23,866 bases of DNA from a virus: IMG/VR virus record IMGVR_UViG_3300030406_001027, positions 15,407 through 39,272 of that record; one strand, given 5' to 3'. Position numbers and translations under genes: made by a program. This document shows positions 2,788 to 9,417 of the stretch, piece by piece (the stretch's first letter is position 1; every line of letters starts with the position of its first letter). The notes below the pieces were generated by a model, which did no database searches, was not told the origin of the DNA, and was given only the letters and a program-made list of their open reading frames with translations.

Positions 2788-2818
2788 GGTCGCCCCCCAC
2801 TTCAATGTGGGGACGCCC
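2788..2818 (+). ncRNA. C-run/G-run RNA hairpin
   Basis: CCCCAC (2795-2800) pairs with GTGGGG (2807-2812) around the loop TTCAAT, with short outer pairing between GG-CG (2788-2792) and CG-CC (2814-2817). No U-run follows, so it is not a standard intrinsic terminator. It lies immediately after the stop of the gene ending at 2780. A closely similar hairpin occurs at 5177-5207. Confidence 0.5.
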
Positions 2819-2823
2819 ACAAT

Positions 2824-2911
2824 ATGAGATGAGTTAGATATAATGGTCTAATGTATTATAACAAAAGCATAGCTTAAATTTATAAACATAGTTATATCCT
2901 ACTCCTCTCAT
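2824..2911 (+). ncRNA. Long nested stem-loop, candidate structured RNA of about 88 nt
   Basis: ATGAGATGAGT (2824-2834) pairs with ACTCCTCTCAT (2901-2911) with one mismatch. After a 2x2 internal loop, GATATAA (2837-2843) pairs exactly with TTATATC (2892-2898). Inside, TGT-TTATAA pairs with TTATAAACA with one bulged A, and AAGC-ATA-GCTT forms the tip. A TATAAT at 2839-2844 could instead be a promoter -10, but I see no matching -35. It stands just upstream of the Shine-Dalgarno sequence of the gene at 2926. Confidence 0.45.
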
Positions 2912-2925
2912 TTAGAAAGGAATTT

Positions 2926-3150
2926 ATGAGTGATAATGTAGAAACTAAATACAGATGTATTATGGATATAGCAAAAACTTTAAGTATGGAAGAAATACAA
3001 GTACTTGAAAAGATGCTGCTAGAATTATGGTTTAATAAATTAGAATCAAAGAAACTTGAGAATAATATATCTTATGAAGATAAAAAAAGAGAGTATATCA
3101 AAGATATAAAAAAATTAGATAAATTAACTCAAGAGATGAAAAAATTATGA
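2926..3150 (+). CDS. Small coiled-coil-type early protein, 74 residues
   Basis: Not recognised. A strong Shine-Dalgarno sequence (AGAAAGGAA) precedes the ATG. The product is mostly helical and charged; the C-terminal half (residues about 40-74) is rich in Lys/Glu/Leu with heptad-like spacing, suggesting a coiled coil. It contains FNKLESKKLENN and ends LTQEMKKL. It is the first gene after the structured gap at 2781-2925, so that RNA may control its expression. It overlaps the next gene by a few bases. Confidence 0.6.
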   Translation: MSDNVETKYRCIMDIAKTLSMEEIQVLEKMLLELWFNKLESKKLENNISYEDKKREYIKDIKKLDKLTQEMKKL

Positions 3151-3458
3151 TGCACCATAGTAGAGTGATATTCAAGAACAGACTCAGAGGTAGAAAGATC
3201 TCTCTAAAGAAAGGACTTGAAATCATATATCAATTACCCTTCACAGGATTTATCAGATCAGATAAGTTTTGGTGGTGGCGTAATTACATAGATTGGATCA
3301 AGTACTTACCAATAGAGTATCCAAGCAAGGGTATGCTAATGGTCGTGAGATTAAATCTTGATAGTAAAGATCCAAATACTATTAGAGTGGTAACCACCGG
3401 TGGCATTGATAAACGAAAGCCACAGGTGCTTAAGAAACTATTTAGAAAGGAGCTATGA
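3147..3458 (+). CDS. Hypothetical early protein, 103 residues
   Basis: Not recognised. Starts at either of two adjacent ATGs (3147 or 3150). The product is basic and aromatic-rich, with a striking KFWWWRNYIDWIKYLPIEYP stretch at about residues 40-59, then a beta-type segment (MLMVVRLNLD; TIRVVTTGG) and a basic end. The Trp cluster looks like a protein- or nucleic-acid-binding surface. Its last codons carry the ribosome-binding site (AAAGGAG) of the HTH regulator that follows, and the two genes overlap. Confidence 0.6.
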   Translation: MMHHSRVIFKNRLRGRKISLKKGLEIIYQLPFTGFIRSDKFWWWRNYIDWIKYLPIEYPSKGMLMVVRLNLDSKDPNTIRVVTTGGIDKRKPQVLKKLFRKEL

Positions 3459-4397: not shown

Positions 4398-4420
4398 CAT
4401 CGTTAGATCACTGTGCAATG

Positions 4421-4463
4421 ACCCCATGTGTTTGAAATCTTTTTTCCCTCGTTCGCATGGGGT
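4421..4463 (+). repeat. Inverted repeat ACCCCATG / CATGGGGT in an early intergenic gap
   Basis: ACCCCATG (4421-4428) is the exact reverse complement of CATGGGGT (4456-4463), with a 27-nt pyrimidine-rich loop. The 3' arm is followed by TTACAAACAGAAAGGAA and then an ATG, nearly the same order as after the hairpin at 5177-5207. The loop holds a T-run, but it is not downstream of the stem, so an intrinsic terminator is unlikely. Confidence 0.5.
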
Positions 4464-4483
4464 TTACAAACAGAAAGGAAACA

Positions 4484-5089
4484 ATGAAACCAATACGTAA
4501 AGATGAACAAGTATACTTAAAAGAGTACATCAATAGAAAGTTTGATCGTCATAGGTCACACTTGGAGTCTGAAAGACAAATTGATGTAGACAATTCTGTA
4601 GAAAGGAATCTATCAAAGTTTAAAAAGACATTGAACTTGAATGATATGATTAAAACAGTAACTAAATTATCATCAGATTATATTGATTTTGTAGATAACT
4701 ATGAATCACGTAAGTTAGATAAAAAAAGACGTTTAATTGAAGCTGGTGAGAAACTACAAAAAAAACTGAGTAAGTGGCAATCTATTAGAAGATGGGAGAA
4801 AACTCCTGATTTTGTAGGAAGATTGACAGGTGATGATAATCCAATAGATATAACTGATATAGATAAATTTCTTACATCAGTATGCGAAGAAGAAACTGTG
4901 AAAGCATACGATAGAAGTAAGAAAGGTCAAGCTATCAGAAAACTAGATGCACAAAGAGAAGAAGCAGAAAATGCATTATACTCTGGTGGATCTATTCAAG
5001 CTGTGAGACAATACATTAATAGTGTATTCACTCAAGCAGGAATTGCTGATAACGTTGCAAAGAATTTGTTGATGTTATCTCAAAAATAA
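4484..5089 (+). CDS. Hypothetical helical early protein, 201 residues
   Basis: The largest gene of the early block, not recognised. An in-frame ATG at 4457 lies inside the inverted repeat; the ATG at 4484, 4 nt after AAAGGAA, is the better start. The product is highly charged and mostly helical: Arg/Lys/Glu-rich residues 1-40, a coiled-coil-like segment around residues 75-100 (ESRKLDKKRRLIEAGEKLQK), a loop with WEKTPDFVGRLTGDDNP, then another helical part ending VAKNLLMLSQK. No membrane span or catalytic motif. Its leader hairpin suggests its translation is controlled. Confidence 0.65.
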   Translation: MKPIRKDEQVYLKEYINRKFDRHRSHLESERQIDVDNSVERNLSKFKKTLNLNDMIKTVTKLSSDYIDFVDNYESRKLDKKRRLIEAGEKLQKKLSKWQSIRRWEKTPDFVGRLTGDDNPIDITDIDKFLTSVCEEETVKAYDRSKKGQAIRKLDAQREEAENALYSGGSIQAVRQYINSVFTQAGIADNVAKNLLMLSQK

Positions 5090-5175
5090 TTACTACTACA
5101 AGAACAACCAAGTTATAGGACAAAGCTTTGCTCACTGTCATAACTGTAACGTAAGGGAGTAGCTACAGTAGTAAT
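5089..5175 (+). ncRNA. Candidate structured RNA of about 87 nt
   Basis: ATTACTACT (5089-5097) pairs exactly with AGTAGTAAT (5167-5175) to close the element. Inside, AGTTAT-GACA (5111-5116, 5119-5122) pairs with TGTC-ATAACT (5136-5145) with a 2-nt bulge, tipped by AGC-TTT-GCT. A weak third stem CTGTA/TACAG (5144-5148/5164-5168) competes with the other two. The gap has no gene. It lies directly upstream of the hairpin and gene at 5225. It is not a tRNA. Possible roles: leader RNA, small regulatory RNA, or processing site. Confidence 0.45.
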
Positions 5176-5176
5176 C

Positions 5177-5207
5177 GGTATCCCCCCACACTTACGTGGG
5201 GGTTACC
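5177..5207 (+). ncRNA. Strong C-run/G-run leader hairpin
   Basis: CCCCCAC (5183-5189) pairs with GTGGGGG (5196-5202) around ACTTAC, and GGTA (5177-5180) pairs with TACC (5204-5207), giving 11 bp with a small bulge. It ends 7 nt before AGAAAGGAA and 17 nt before the ATG at 5225. No U-run follows. The position suggests control of ribosome access or protection of the 5' end of a processed mRNA. Confidence 0.55.
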
Positions 5208-5224
5208 TCAACAGAAAGGAACTT

Positions 5225-5452
5225 ATGAAAAACGAAAACAACAATATAGTTTATTGTGTTGTACAAATCGATTGGACTTGGACAACTAATGAACCAAGAC
5301 CGAGTATAATTGCAACTTATGGCAATCGTGAAGATGCTATACAGAAGCAAGATCTTATGAAAAAGATAGCGACTATTGATCAAAGCAAGATGCAGTTCAA
5401 AGTAATATCTATAACTTACGAGGAGAAAGATGCATCCAAGAAAGCAGATTAA
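5225..5452 (+). CDS. Small hypothetical early protein, 75 residues
   Basis: Not recognised. AAAGGAA lies 3-4 nt before the ATG. The 75-residue product looks like a small alpha/beta domain: an N-terminal strand (NIVYCVVQIDWTWTTN), then a helix with REDAIQKQDLMKKIA and a second strand (FKVISITYEE). This strand-helix-strand order resembles short phage proteins of unknown role. Its translation probably depends on the hairpin immediately upstream. It overlaps the next gene by 23 nt. Confidence 0.6.
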   Translation: MKNENNNIVYCVVQIDWTWTTNEPRPSIIATYGNREDAIQKQDLMKKIATIDQSKMQFKVISITYEEKDASKKAD

Positions 5453-6495: not shown

Positions 6496-6664
6496 TAAAA
6501 ATGCTGCGATGAAAGCTGATTATCTTAGAGTGTTAGCTGAAAATAAAAAGCTAAAACAAGAGAATGCTAATCTTCAAAAGGAGATCCATGTGATGAAATC
6601 TATTATCCCAAAGGATGAGATGGAGTCATGGCCAACTGGGTTAGGAGATAAAAAGGATGAGTGA
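6488..6664 (+). CDS. Small coiled-coil early protein, 58 residues
   Basis: ATG at 6488 after ACGGAGGT (8 nt spacing). Residues about 10-45 form a clear coiled coil (DYLRVLAENKKLKQENANLQ), like a leucine-zipper spacer or short DNA-associated adaptor. No basic DNA-binding region precedes it. The C-terminus is short and charged (LGDKKDE). It overlaps both flanking genes. The paired coiled-coil genes 6283 and 6488 might form a complex; this is inference. Confidence 0.6.
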   Translation: MIDKNAAMKADYLRVLAENKKLKQENANLQKEIHVMKSIIPKDEMESWPTGLGDKKDE

Positions 6665-6947
6665 TGAATATACAATAGGTTCTGATCGTGTAGTTCGTTT
6701 GGAAAAACGAGGTAGAGGATTCAGAAGATTAATCACAGCGATAAATGATTTACCATTATATGGTATCATACACGCTACACATCCTAGTTTGGTAAATGAA
6801 CTAGAGCTGCTTAAAGATAAATTGAAAACTCTTATTGCAGAAAACAATAAGTCTTTATCAGAATATTATTTACCAAGAGAAGAATCGATAAACTCAGATC
6901 CTTTGAAGGATAACATAATTAATCAGTACACACAGAAAGGTACTTAA
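6657..6947 (+). CDS. Hypothetical early protein, last gene of the first early block
   Basis: Not recognised. The ATG at 6657 is preceded by GGAG. The 96-residue protein has a basic start (RVVRLEKRGRGFRRL), a middle with ITAINDLPLYGIIHATHPSL and a helical C-terminus. RKxxGRGxRRL-type sequence could bind RNA or DNA. It ends 4 nt inside the stop of the convergent minus-strand gene (6944-7222), so this is where the early block meets the minus-strand island. No terminator hairpin is seen there. Confidence 0.6.
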   Translation: MSDEYTIGSDRVVRLEKRGRGFRRLITAINDLPLYGIIHATHPSLVNELELLKDKLKTLIAENNKSLSEYYLPREESINSDPLKDNIINQYTQKGT

Positions 6948-7513: not shown

Positions 7514-7885
7514 CTAATATTTGACCTGCATTAAGAAGTCAATATGGGATTTGCATATTGGTAAAAGTTTGTCATAGATCTCTTTTTGGACATATTCTAT
7601 GTTATTTTTATCGTTTTTATCCCATAAAATGTAGAATTTACTAGCATAATCCATAGGATCTATACCTAATTTTTGCCAAAATTTACGTTCACCAGTCATA
7701 TGTAATTGATGATGATGTGCGTAGCATAAAGGTATAGTCCAGCAATCACTAACTTTTTGTGATATGCCACGTTTCTCAGCTATAGTTATATGATGTGCCT
7801 GGCATTCGTGATACATACAAAGTAGACATTGCTGACTAGCTATCCATTGTAAGTATTTTTTTGACTTCCAATTTTTTTTTGACAC
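7514..7885 (-). CDS. HNH-type nuclease (DUF968/YbcO/Ref-like)
   Basis: A metal-dependent DNA endonuclease of 123 residues. Visible motifs: C20-x2-C23 (CLLC), HH at 31-32 (QAHHI), C54-x2-H57HH (PLCYAHHHQLH) and GERKFW at about 65-70. The CxxC...HH...C..HHxxLH order with GER-W matches the phage recombination-associated HNH proteins related to DUF968 and Ref. These act on recombination or DNA repair intermediates. The GTG start at 7885 has AAAGG 5 nt upstream and overlaps the upstream HTH gene by 50 nt, so the two are coupled. Confidence 0.75.
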   Translation of the reverse strand: MSKKNWKSKKYLQWIASQQCLLCMYHECQAHHITIAEKRGISQKVSDCWTIPLCYAHHHQLHMTGERKFWQKLGIDPMDYASKFYILWDKNDKNNIEYVQKEIYDKLLPICKSHIDFLMQVKY

Positions 7886-8333
7886 CCTGACCTTTTATAG
7901 TATTTCTTACTTTTACGTAACCAAAATATATGGCCAGACTGCGTAATGCATCGTGGACTAAATTACTGGCTTTACGTTCAGTAAGATTCATACATTTACT
8001 GATTTCAGTTATAGAGTAATTTTGGTAACAAAAGTACTTTAGAATGATTATAAACTGTGGCAGCAGCTCTTCTGATATTTTAGCCAGTATACTGAAAGCT
8101 CCAATCTTGGAGTCCATTATACCTTCAGATCCATAGTCTAGTTTAGGTTCATAGCTAGAAGCTCTACCACCTAGCTGTGATATTTCACATAATCGTCTAT
8201 ATCTAGATCCAGCTACAAATTCAGATTCTGTGATTAGCTGCCTATGAAACATATAATCAAGTCTAGATTCTCTTACATTTTTCATGACTGTTTTCTTATC
8301 AAATTGCTTTGCAACTAGCTCTAGTTTATCCAT
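7836..8333 (-). CDS. DUF6456-like HTH DNA-binding protein
   Basis: A 165-residue protein resembling the DUF6456 pattern: residues 41-50 read AGSRYRRLCE, followed by an intermediate linker, a helix at 75-100 (KIGAFSILAKISEELLPQFI) and a helix-turn-helix at about 107-136 (ITEISKCMNLTERKASNLVH, then LRSLAIYFGY). In such proteins the C-terminal HTH resembles sigma-factor region 4. It probably regulates phage transcription or marks DNA. Overlaps the HNH gene; AGGAAG in the end of the upstream gene is its ribosome-binding site. Match is by pattern, not by search. Confidence 0.65.
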   Translation of the reverse strand: MDKLELVAKQFDKKTVMKNVRESRLDYMFHRQLITESEFVAGSRYRRLCEISQLGGRASSYEPKLDYGSEGIMDSKIGAFSILAKISEELLPQFIIILKYFCYQNYSITEISKCMNLTERKASNLVHDALRSLAIYFGYVKVRNTIKGQGVKKKLEVKKILTMDS

Positions 8334-8622
8334 ACTTCCTTATATAAGATTGAATGGATTTATCAACAAGCGATTTGAATAGATCATCTTTATTGTATTT
8401 ACCTAGTAATCTATCCACACGATTACTAGATCTACAATTATGATAAAACAAGATTTTACTTTTACACCCATACCTTTTGGTAGGTTGTAAAAGGTAAGAC
8501 ATTATAATTGAGAGATTATATACAAAATAATCTTTCTCAGTTTTAATTGTTTGTTTACCTTGCAATATTTTGATAGAAGTATTGTACTTACTATTTAAAA
8601 AGTTATGAACGTTAATCAACAT
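8326..8622 (-). CDS. Hypothetical protein of minus-strand island, start uncertain
   Basis: The frame is open from the far side down to TAA at 8328-8326. It could start at ATG 8622, at 8658 (which would run into the plus-strand nuclease gene) or at ATG 8502. None has a clear Shine-Dalgarno sequence. The product is basic (TKRYGCKSKILFYH; RSSNRVDRLLGKYNKDDLF) with no motif I recognise. Its stop overlaps the ATG of the next gene with a good ribosome-binding site inside it, which supports a real gene. A plus-strand promoter candidate lies within its 5' part. Confidence 0.45.
   Translation of the reverse strand: MLINVHNFLNSKYNTSIKILQGKQTIKTEKDYFVYNLSIIMSYLLQPTKRYGCKSKILFYHNCRSSNRVDRLLGKYNKDDLFKSLVDKSIQSYIRKYG
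8570..8597 (+). promoter_or_regulatory. Candidate promoter for the nuclease-SSB operon (TTGATA, 16 bp, TATTTA)
   Basis: TTGATA (8570-8575) and TATTTA (8592-8597) have 16-bp spacing; transcription would begin near 8604, about 30 nt before the ATG at 8635. A weaker leftward signal (TTGATT near 8618, TAAATA near 8596) overlaps it, which would make a compact divergent promoter pair. Confidence 0.4.
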
Positions 8623-8634
8623 AAAGGATTTAAA

Positions 8635-9417
8635 ATGCTTAAAAAAGAATATTGTCATAGTCCTAGTTCAGCTAATGCATTCATAGATTCTCCAGCATAC
8701 TGGATTATTACGAAATTATATGATTTCGAAGGCCCTGTAAATGCTAGAATGTCTATGGGTACAGCAGCAGAACATGCAGCTAACGAAGCTATGAGTAATC
8801 TTGACATGGATGAAAGCCAAGTACAGAAGGTTACTGAAGCTAAGTTTGATGAAGAAACTAAAAATGAGTTCAAAGATGCACCTGAACGTGAGTGGGCAGT
8901 AGATATAGCTATGAGATTTGCACAAAATCTTACAGAGTTTGGCCCTTTAGTATCTTATCAAAAAGAAACTATTACCAAACATGATAGTTTAAAATACCCA
9001 ATTAAGACTTTAACAGACTTTGAGTTTGAAGATTTTATTGTAGATACTAAAGCTACTGCATATTTGAAAAGACTCAAGAAAGGTACACTAGATCCTAATT
9101 GGTATCCGAAAGCAGCTGATGTAAGACAACAGTTATTGTATCAGCATGTACGCAACAAACCTACGATGTTGCTATATGCTTCTCGGTCAGATCATGAAGC
9201 AATAGATATGGTAGATCGTGATGAACATATGCTCAAAGAGCTTATTCATGCTATGCAGACCATAGAACATATTACTTCTATAGCTAAAACCAAAGAGGAT
9301 ATAATCAGAATGTTTCCATTGAATATGGATAACTTCAGGTGGGGTAAAGAACCTGACTCCCCATACAAGGAGTTTGCCAAGAAGTTGTGGACTAAAGCAT
9401 TCGATTATACTATATAA
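8635..9417 (+). CDS. PD-(D/E)XK nuclease, RecB/Cas4-like exonuclease
   Basis: A DNA exonuclease or recombination nuclease of 260 residues. Visible motifs of the RecB-like/Cas4-like fold: SPSSANAFIDSPAYWIITK (9-27), G-x4-H at 42-47 (MGTAAEH), Asp 128 (LTDFEF), D137-x-K139 (IVDTKA) and Q165-x3-Y169 (QQLLY). Together these are the His, Asp, D-x-K and QxxxY set of this family (PF12705-type). The ATG at 8635 follows AAAGGA at 6 nt; an ATG at 8605 in the same frame lacks a site. Paired with the downstream ssDNA-binding protein, it suggests recombination-dependent replication or DNA processing. Confidence 0.8.
   Translation: MLKKEYCHSPSSANAFIDSPAYWIITKLYDFEGPVNARMSMGTAAEHAANEAMSNLDMDESQVQKVTEAKFDEETKNEFKDAPEREWAVDIAMRFAQNLTEFGPLVSYQKETITKHDSLKYPIKTLTDFEFEDFIVDTKATAYLKRLKKGTLDPNWYPKAADVRQQLLYQHVRNKPTMLLYASRSDHEAIDMVDRDEHMLKELIHAMQTIEHITSIAKTKEDIIRMFPLNMDNFRWGKEPDSPYKEFAKKLWTKAFDYTI

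Follow-up and report, generated by a model that had tools for sequence, protein, structure and literature searches.

Lambdoid phages carry morons, accessory units that lie between genes and are exchanged among related phages; these are protein genes with their own promoters and terminators. Structured RNAs of marine phages include the cyanophage motifs manA and wcaG, which have been described mainly as 5' UTR elements (PMC2864571). In the cluster K mycobacteriophages, the ESAS are hairpins located just 5' of conserved start sites, at some non-structural genes (PMC3203893). A review of phage-derived small RNAs (PMC12197685) deals with phage RNA proposed to work apart from its neighbors, as is suggested below for the element that we call A. 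For pelagiphages, no paper on hairpins or noncoding RNAs of this kind was found in a search of titles and abstracts, and the words "noncoding," "intergenic," and "small RNA" are absent from the pelagiphage transcriptome paper PMC12753301.

The stretch of DNA analyzed here (the window; 23,866 nucleotides, bases 15407 to 39272 of the 39,272-base virus record IMGVR_UViG_3300030406_001027) belongs to a virus referred to below as W. Given that its phosphodiesterase is 79% identical to the homologue from Pelagibacter phage HTVC026P and that its 201-aa gene has the pelagiphages EXVC032P and HTVC023P as its sole cultured relatives, we infer that W is a pelagiphage-like virus related to the phages of SAR11, its presumed host. 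The 201-aa gene (positions 4484-5089, plus strand) encodes a protein with predicted long helices and without a known family; its MKPIRKDE start (4484-4507) is kept without exception in the whole family, down to 24% overall identity. The predicted structure of this protein is helical and has no match in the PDB, so a role as an RNA-binding regulator is unsupported. Comparison of the genes on either side of the gap with PHROGs and Pfam revealed nothing useful. Elsewhere in the window, the minus-strand gene at 7836-8333 encodes a 165-aa protein with a weak match to the sigma-70 region 4 (E value of 5e-4, below the curated cutoff), which is possibly a phage transcription factor.

Between the 201-aa gene and the next gene, which starts at 5225 and encodes a putative 75-aa product (5225-5452, plus strand), lies a gap (5090-5224) that consists of two distinct units, element A (5090-5174) and element B (5177-5207), followed by AACAGAAAGGAA (5210-5221, plus strand), the extended Shine-Dalgarno sequence of the 75-aa gene. 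As the earlier note on this DNA had it, no gene fits in there: no plus-strand open reading frame of at least 40 aa was found in the gap. A coding or readthrough role for it was dropped; judged by eye, the frames are soon closed and differ between members.

The outer stem of element A had been placed at 5089-5097/5167-5175, and its pairing is indeed exact (AUUACUACU/AGUAGUAAU). However, position 5089 still belongs to the upstream stop codon, as its final A, and the module proper was therefore taken to span 5090-5174, with an outer stem of 8 to 9 bp at 5090-5097/5167-5174 on the plus strand. Enclosed by this stem are the two conserved strands of the internal loop, ACAAGAACAA at 5098-5107 and GAGUAGCUAC at 5157-5166; a clamp, in which 5104-5105 pairs with 5159-5160 and 5108-5109 with 5155-5156; and an inner hairpin (5112-5150) that varies. 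The inner stem previously described at 5111-5122/5136-5145 (GUUAU/AUAAC plus GACA/UGUC) is present but represents only one of two near registers; in the minimum-energy fold, 5112-5122 is paired with 5136-5139 and 5144-5150. The short clamp and the 6x6 internal loop, which had been overlooked, are the most conserved parts of the element. The loop letters GAA and AGUA would be compatible with a motif of the loop-E/sarcin-ricin type.

Folding of the complete gap gives -40.9 kcal/mol, compared with -25.2 ± 3.5 kcal/mol for its shuffled versions, none of which (0 of 200) is as stable. Much of this stability is contributed by element B (-19.6 kcal/mol, with 1 of 200 shuffles as stable). For element A alone (-20.1; z score of -2.2), the excess is modest, with 6 of 200 shuffles being as stable, and the fold of its minus strand is unremarkable (z score of -0.8). 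The claim of a stability beyond that of shuffled sequence thus holds for the whole gap and for B and only modestly for A, which makes comparison, rather than stability, the main argument for the latter.

Five members of A are known: those of W and of the related contigs L002, L003, L005, and L116. In their alignment, which was fitted to a covariance model and in which three of the five sequences are very similar, all 12 core pairs form in every member (60 of 60 pair cells), two-sided changes are seen at 6 of the 12 pairs, and the covariation score is not reached by any of 500 shuffles. With four sequences only, two-sided changes are limited to 3 of the 12 pairs. The compensatory changes anticipated in homologous gaps are therefore there, in the stems of A as well as in those of B (see below). 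The member in L116 was found in a viral scan that fixed only the loop letters, so its loop identity is partly by construction; it scores 46.5 bits with the covariance model (E value of 4.7e-8). Its outer stem, UCUUAACUGU/AUGGUUAAGA, is mostly unlike UUACUACU/AGUAGUAA, yet 10 bp are paired; the clamp is GU/AC, as in L003, and the inner arm is a 13-bp hairpin. Among the remaining new matches of the same scan, the structure is not formed. Relaxed loop patterns, run against the viral and GTDB collections, returned almost exclusively chance matches without a pairing outer stem, and the covariance model detected no additional member in ten whole records.

Neither A nor the entire gap reached the gathering threshold of any family in Rfam 15, and searches by E value yielded only chance-level matches. 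ARAGORN reported no tRNA or tmRNA, and DNA similarity searches of cultured phages produced no match to the gap or to three slot regions. Element A is a genuine, previously unlisted structured RNA. A mere chance fold, or a relic in a gap of close genomes, would be in line with the modest stability of A alone and the small number of members; the conserved loop and the covarying stems in five members, one of them in an independent context, make such an explanation highly improbable.

All five copies run the same way as the early operon. The wobble pairs of the outer stem (one in L002 and two in L116) are G-U on the plus strand and A-C on the minus strand, and the minus strands fold more weakly than the plus strands; on these two grounds, A was read as a plus-strand RNA. 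The same observations bear on the idea that A represents a very small mobile element of DNA, of the miniature inverted-repeat type, whose RNA fold would be a by-product of its inverted ends. Its clean presence or absence and its altered position would fit such an element. However, the ends of A vary and its middle loop is kept, which is the reverse of what such elements do, and the wobble pairs favor a plus-strand RNA, with 5 of 5 copies in the operon direction; a DNA element of this kind is accordingly considered improbable.

The search with the 201-aa gene returned 40 loci, and the gap 3' of the gene was read at each of them. Behind this gene, A was found only in W, L002, L003, and L005, in each case directly 3' of the stop codon; it is missing from L004, L006, and L015, and in L007 through L014 there is no gap after the gene. 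In L004, the B hairpin follows the stop codon almost immediately, without a trace of A. The 75-aa gene is kept without A in L006 and, behind another gene, in L004 and L015. The copy in L116 (1331-1411) is located where the early operon ends, ~100 nt past its last rightward gene. The gene that precedes it is a homologue of the one at 6657-6947 of the window, a leftward convergent gene follows at 1508-1789, and the next called rightward gene starts only at 3225, which leaves 1.8 kb past A without a same-strand gene.

These contexts speak against one of the two functions that the earlier note had offered, that of a leader. A riboswitch, thermosensor, or attenuator acting on the 75-aa gene would be expected to accompany it, and A does precede this gene in four contigs, but the gene occurs without A in three others, the L116 copy contradicts any such arrangement, and B and the Shine-Dalgarno sequence lie between A and the start codon. 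A leader is thus quite improbable. The other function offered, that of a trans-acting RNA, is the better candidate of the two. Similarly to manA and wcaG, A is a structured marine-phage RNA detected through covariation; those motifs, however, typically lie in possible 5' UTRs and have been read as cis-regulators (PMC2864571), whereas A does not depend on the gene that follows it. The possibility that A and the hairpin at 5177-5207 form one RNA is not borne out: both structures are real, but each is a unit of its own and is distributed differently among the relatives.

The main rival explanation has A acting in cis as a 3'-end stabilizer or exonuclease block for the preceding gene, together with B and with no role in trans. 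RNA ends are commonly protected by closed stems, A follows the stop codon directly in four contigs, and in L116 it lies about 100 nt past the last early gene, all of which would suit a stabilizer. On the other hand, a plain stabilizer would not require an internal loop that is fixed, A is preceded by different genes (the 201-aa gene versus the homologue of window positions 6657-6947), and B alone suffices in many relatives. A purely cis-acting stabilizer therefore appears possible but doubtful.

The interior of A has also been exchanged. W and L002 are ~97% identical around the locus and 97 to 100% identical after B, but only 47% identical over positions 5114-5143, inside A. L005, which is farther from W, has an L002-type inner arm combined with a W-type B. 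Because identity collapses locally and L005 shows this mixed combination, the sequence comparison indicates that the inner arm was replaced and did not drift.

Element B is a GC-rich gene-boundary hairpin on the plus strand, and its description as a strong hairpin just before a Shine-Dalgarno sequence proved correct: it comprises 4 outer and 7 inner pairs. B itself, or a similarly built hairpin at the homologous position after the 201-aa gene, is found in L002 through L006, L015, and L016 through L026, and such hairpins end shortly 5' of the next gene's ribosome-binding site. Among eight different hairpins, 9 of the 11 pairs show two-sided changes and 98.9% of the cells are paired, a result matched by none of 500 shuffles; as loops and bulges were cut out by hand and only the paired parts of the arms retained, the percentage of pairing is partly by construction, which does not apply to the diversity of pair types. 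Sliding the partner arm abolishes the covariation signal. B was also considered as an intrinsic terminator and rejected: the hairpin is followed by UCAACAG, with no U run, and is absent from the sites of a terminator scan.

In W, hairpins accompany two AACAGAAAGGAA sites, and a further one of the B kind is found at slot 1 (2788-2817, plus strand); analogues occur in relatives, and the arms share no consensus. A B-like placed hairpin of 11 bp with a long loop precedes the 201-aa gene (4420-4464, plus strand). It is also seen in L003, L004, L005, and L115 and is broken in L002; its long conserved loop contains CUCCCUCG or a similar sequence that resembles an anti-Shine-Dalgarno. The combination of B and AACAGAAAGGAA may be comparable to the ESAS/SAS, in which inverted repeats with a variable spacer lie just 5' of a conserved ribosome-binding-site sequence, but the arms of ESAS follow a consensus within one genome, while those of B vary freely with pairing kept, and nothing resembling element A is described there (PMC3203893). 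B is a separate gene-boundary hairpin, whose likeliest role would be to protect mRNA ends and keep the ribosome-binding site open.

Further RNAs occupy other gaps of the early operon, namely slot 1, which follows the hairpin at 2788-2817, and slot 3, at the operon end. Slot 1 of W contains an 88-nt closed-stem RNA (2824-2911, plus strand; z score of -3.7) that is not related to A. It recurs in L115 (3430-3516) with a single substitution, by which a U-C mismatch becomes a U-G pair; between these two phages, the gene before the RNA is 67% identical in DNA sequence, and the one after it is unrelated. The slot is empty in L002, L005, and L109, and a different RNA is common to L003 and L004. In L003 (3986-4425) and L006 (5722-6070), it holds ~350 to 440 nt of foldable, apparently non-coding sequence in place of the small protein gene of the relatives, apparently an array of several closed-stem RNAs, so that slot 1 of these two phages would be RNA only. 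In L113, the slot-1 RNA is followed by a 101-aa gene (2799-3104) whose product looks by eye like a GIY-YIG nuclease; it had no Pfam match at an E value of 0.01.

Slot 3 is closed in W and L115 and holds ~150 to 440 nt in L003, L006, L015, L116, and several of L016 through L025, with blocks that are common to phages in varying combinations. These blocks are called modules for recurring and moving and not for proven folding, several of them being no more stable than shuffles. One of them defines a second RNA family (model R3), with the consensus AGGTAAGYTAG.AACCTG ... AGCTAAAG.CCT around a variable interior, for which RNAalifold found no two-sided changes. It occurs in slot 3 of L006 (10350-10437), L015 (2919-3006), L018 (6480-6559), L022 (10562-10642), and, weakly, L025, as well as directly 3' of distant homologues of the 201-aa gene in L030 through L033 and L036 through L039 (for example, 8584-8672 in both L030 and L036). 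The blocks of L006 and L030 are 96% identical over 70 nt; the L030 homologue of the 201-aa protein is only ~24% identical to that of W. Two places, the gap after the 201-aa gene and the end of the operon, are thus each occupied by A in some phages and by the R3 family in others. A hairpin, CACCCATCAGGGAGACTTGGTGGGTG, is nearly invariant, loop included, in slot 3 of very divergent relatives, at L003 8547, L006 10442, L015 3011, L017 4254, L018 6565, L020 10683, and L025 2924. W and its relatives thus carry further unlisted, probably structured RNAs in three slots.

The reading that we favor, at a probability of roughly one-half, is that A is an exchangeable accessory structured RNA module of the pelagiphage-like early transcript that works as RNA itself. 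It would be a plus-strand module residing in non-coding gaps of the early transcript and presumably co-transcribed with the early operon, with a core formed by the conserved internal loop between the outer stem and the variable inner hairpin. It comes and goes among related viruses, sits at different sites, and has had its inner arm swapped, and it appears to be one of several unrelated RNA modules that fill the three slots. The independence of the module from its neighbors is the reason for taking it as an RNA that acts in its own right. Since a fixed loop between free helices fits an RNA that offers a binding surface, A would most likely present this loop to a protein or RNA of the host or the phage and would not switch a neighboring gene. 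Like a moron, A is an accessory, exchanged unit; it differs from morons in being non-coding RNA and in having no obvious promoter. A broader and more tentative proposal is that the early-operon slots accommodate an accessory set of interchangeable RNA modules, replacing protein genes or lying beside them, each of which would have its target, in trans, in the host or in competing genetic elements.

Few phages in the ocean are as abundant as pelagiphages, in which many early genes have no assigned function. A mobile RNA motif family, together with the other RNAs of the slots, would make part of the pelagiphage equipment RNA, which would have escaped notice because annotation looks for proteins only. 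The five members of A and their motif provide a concrete probe for metatranscriptomes.
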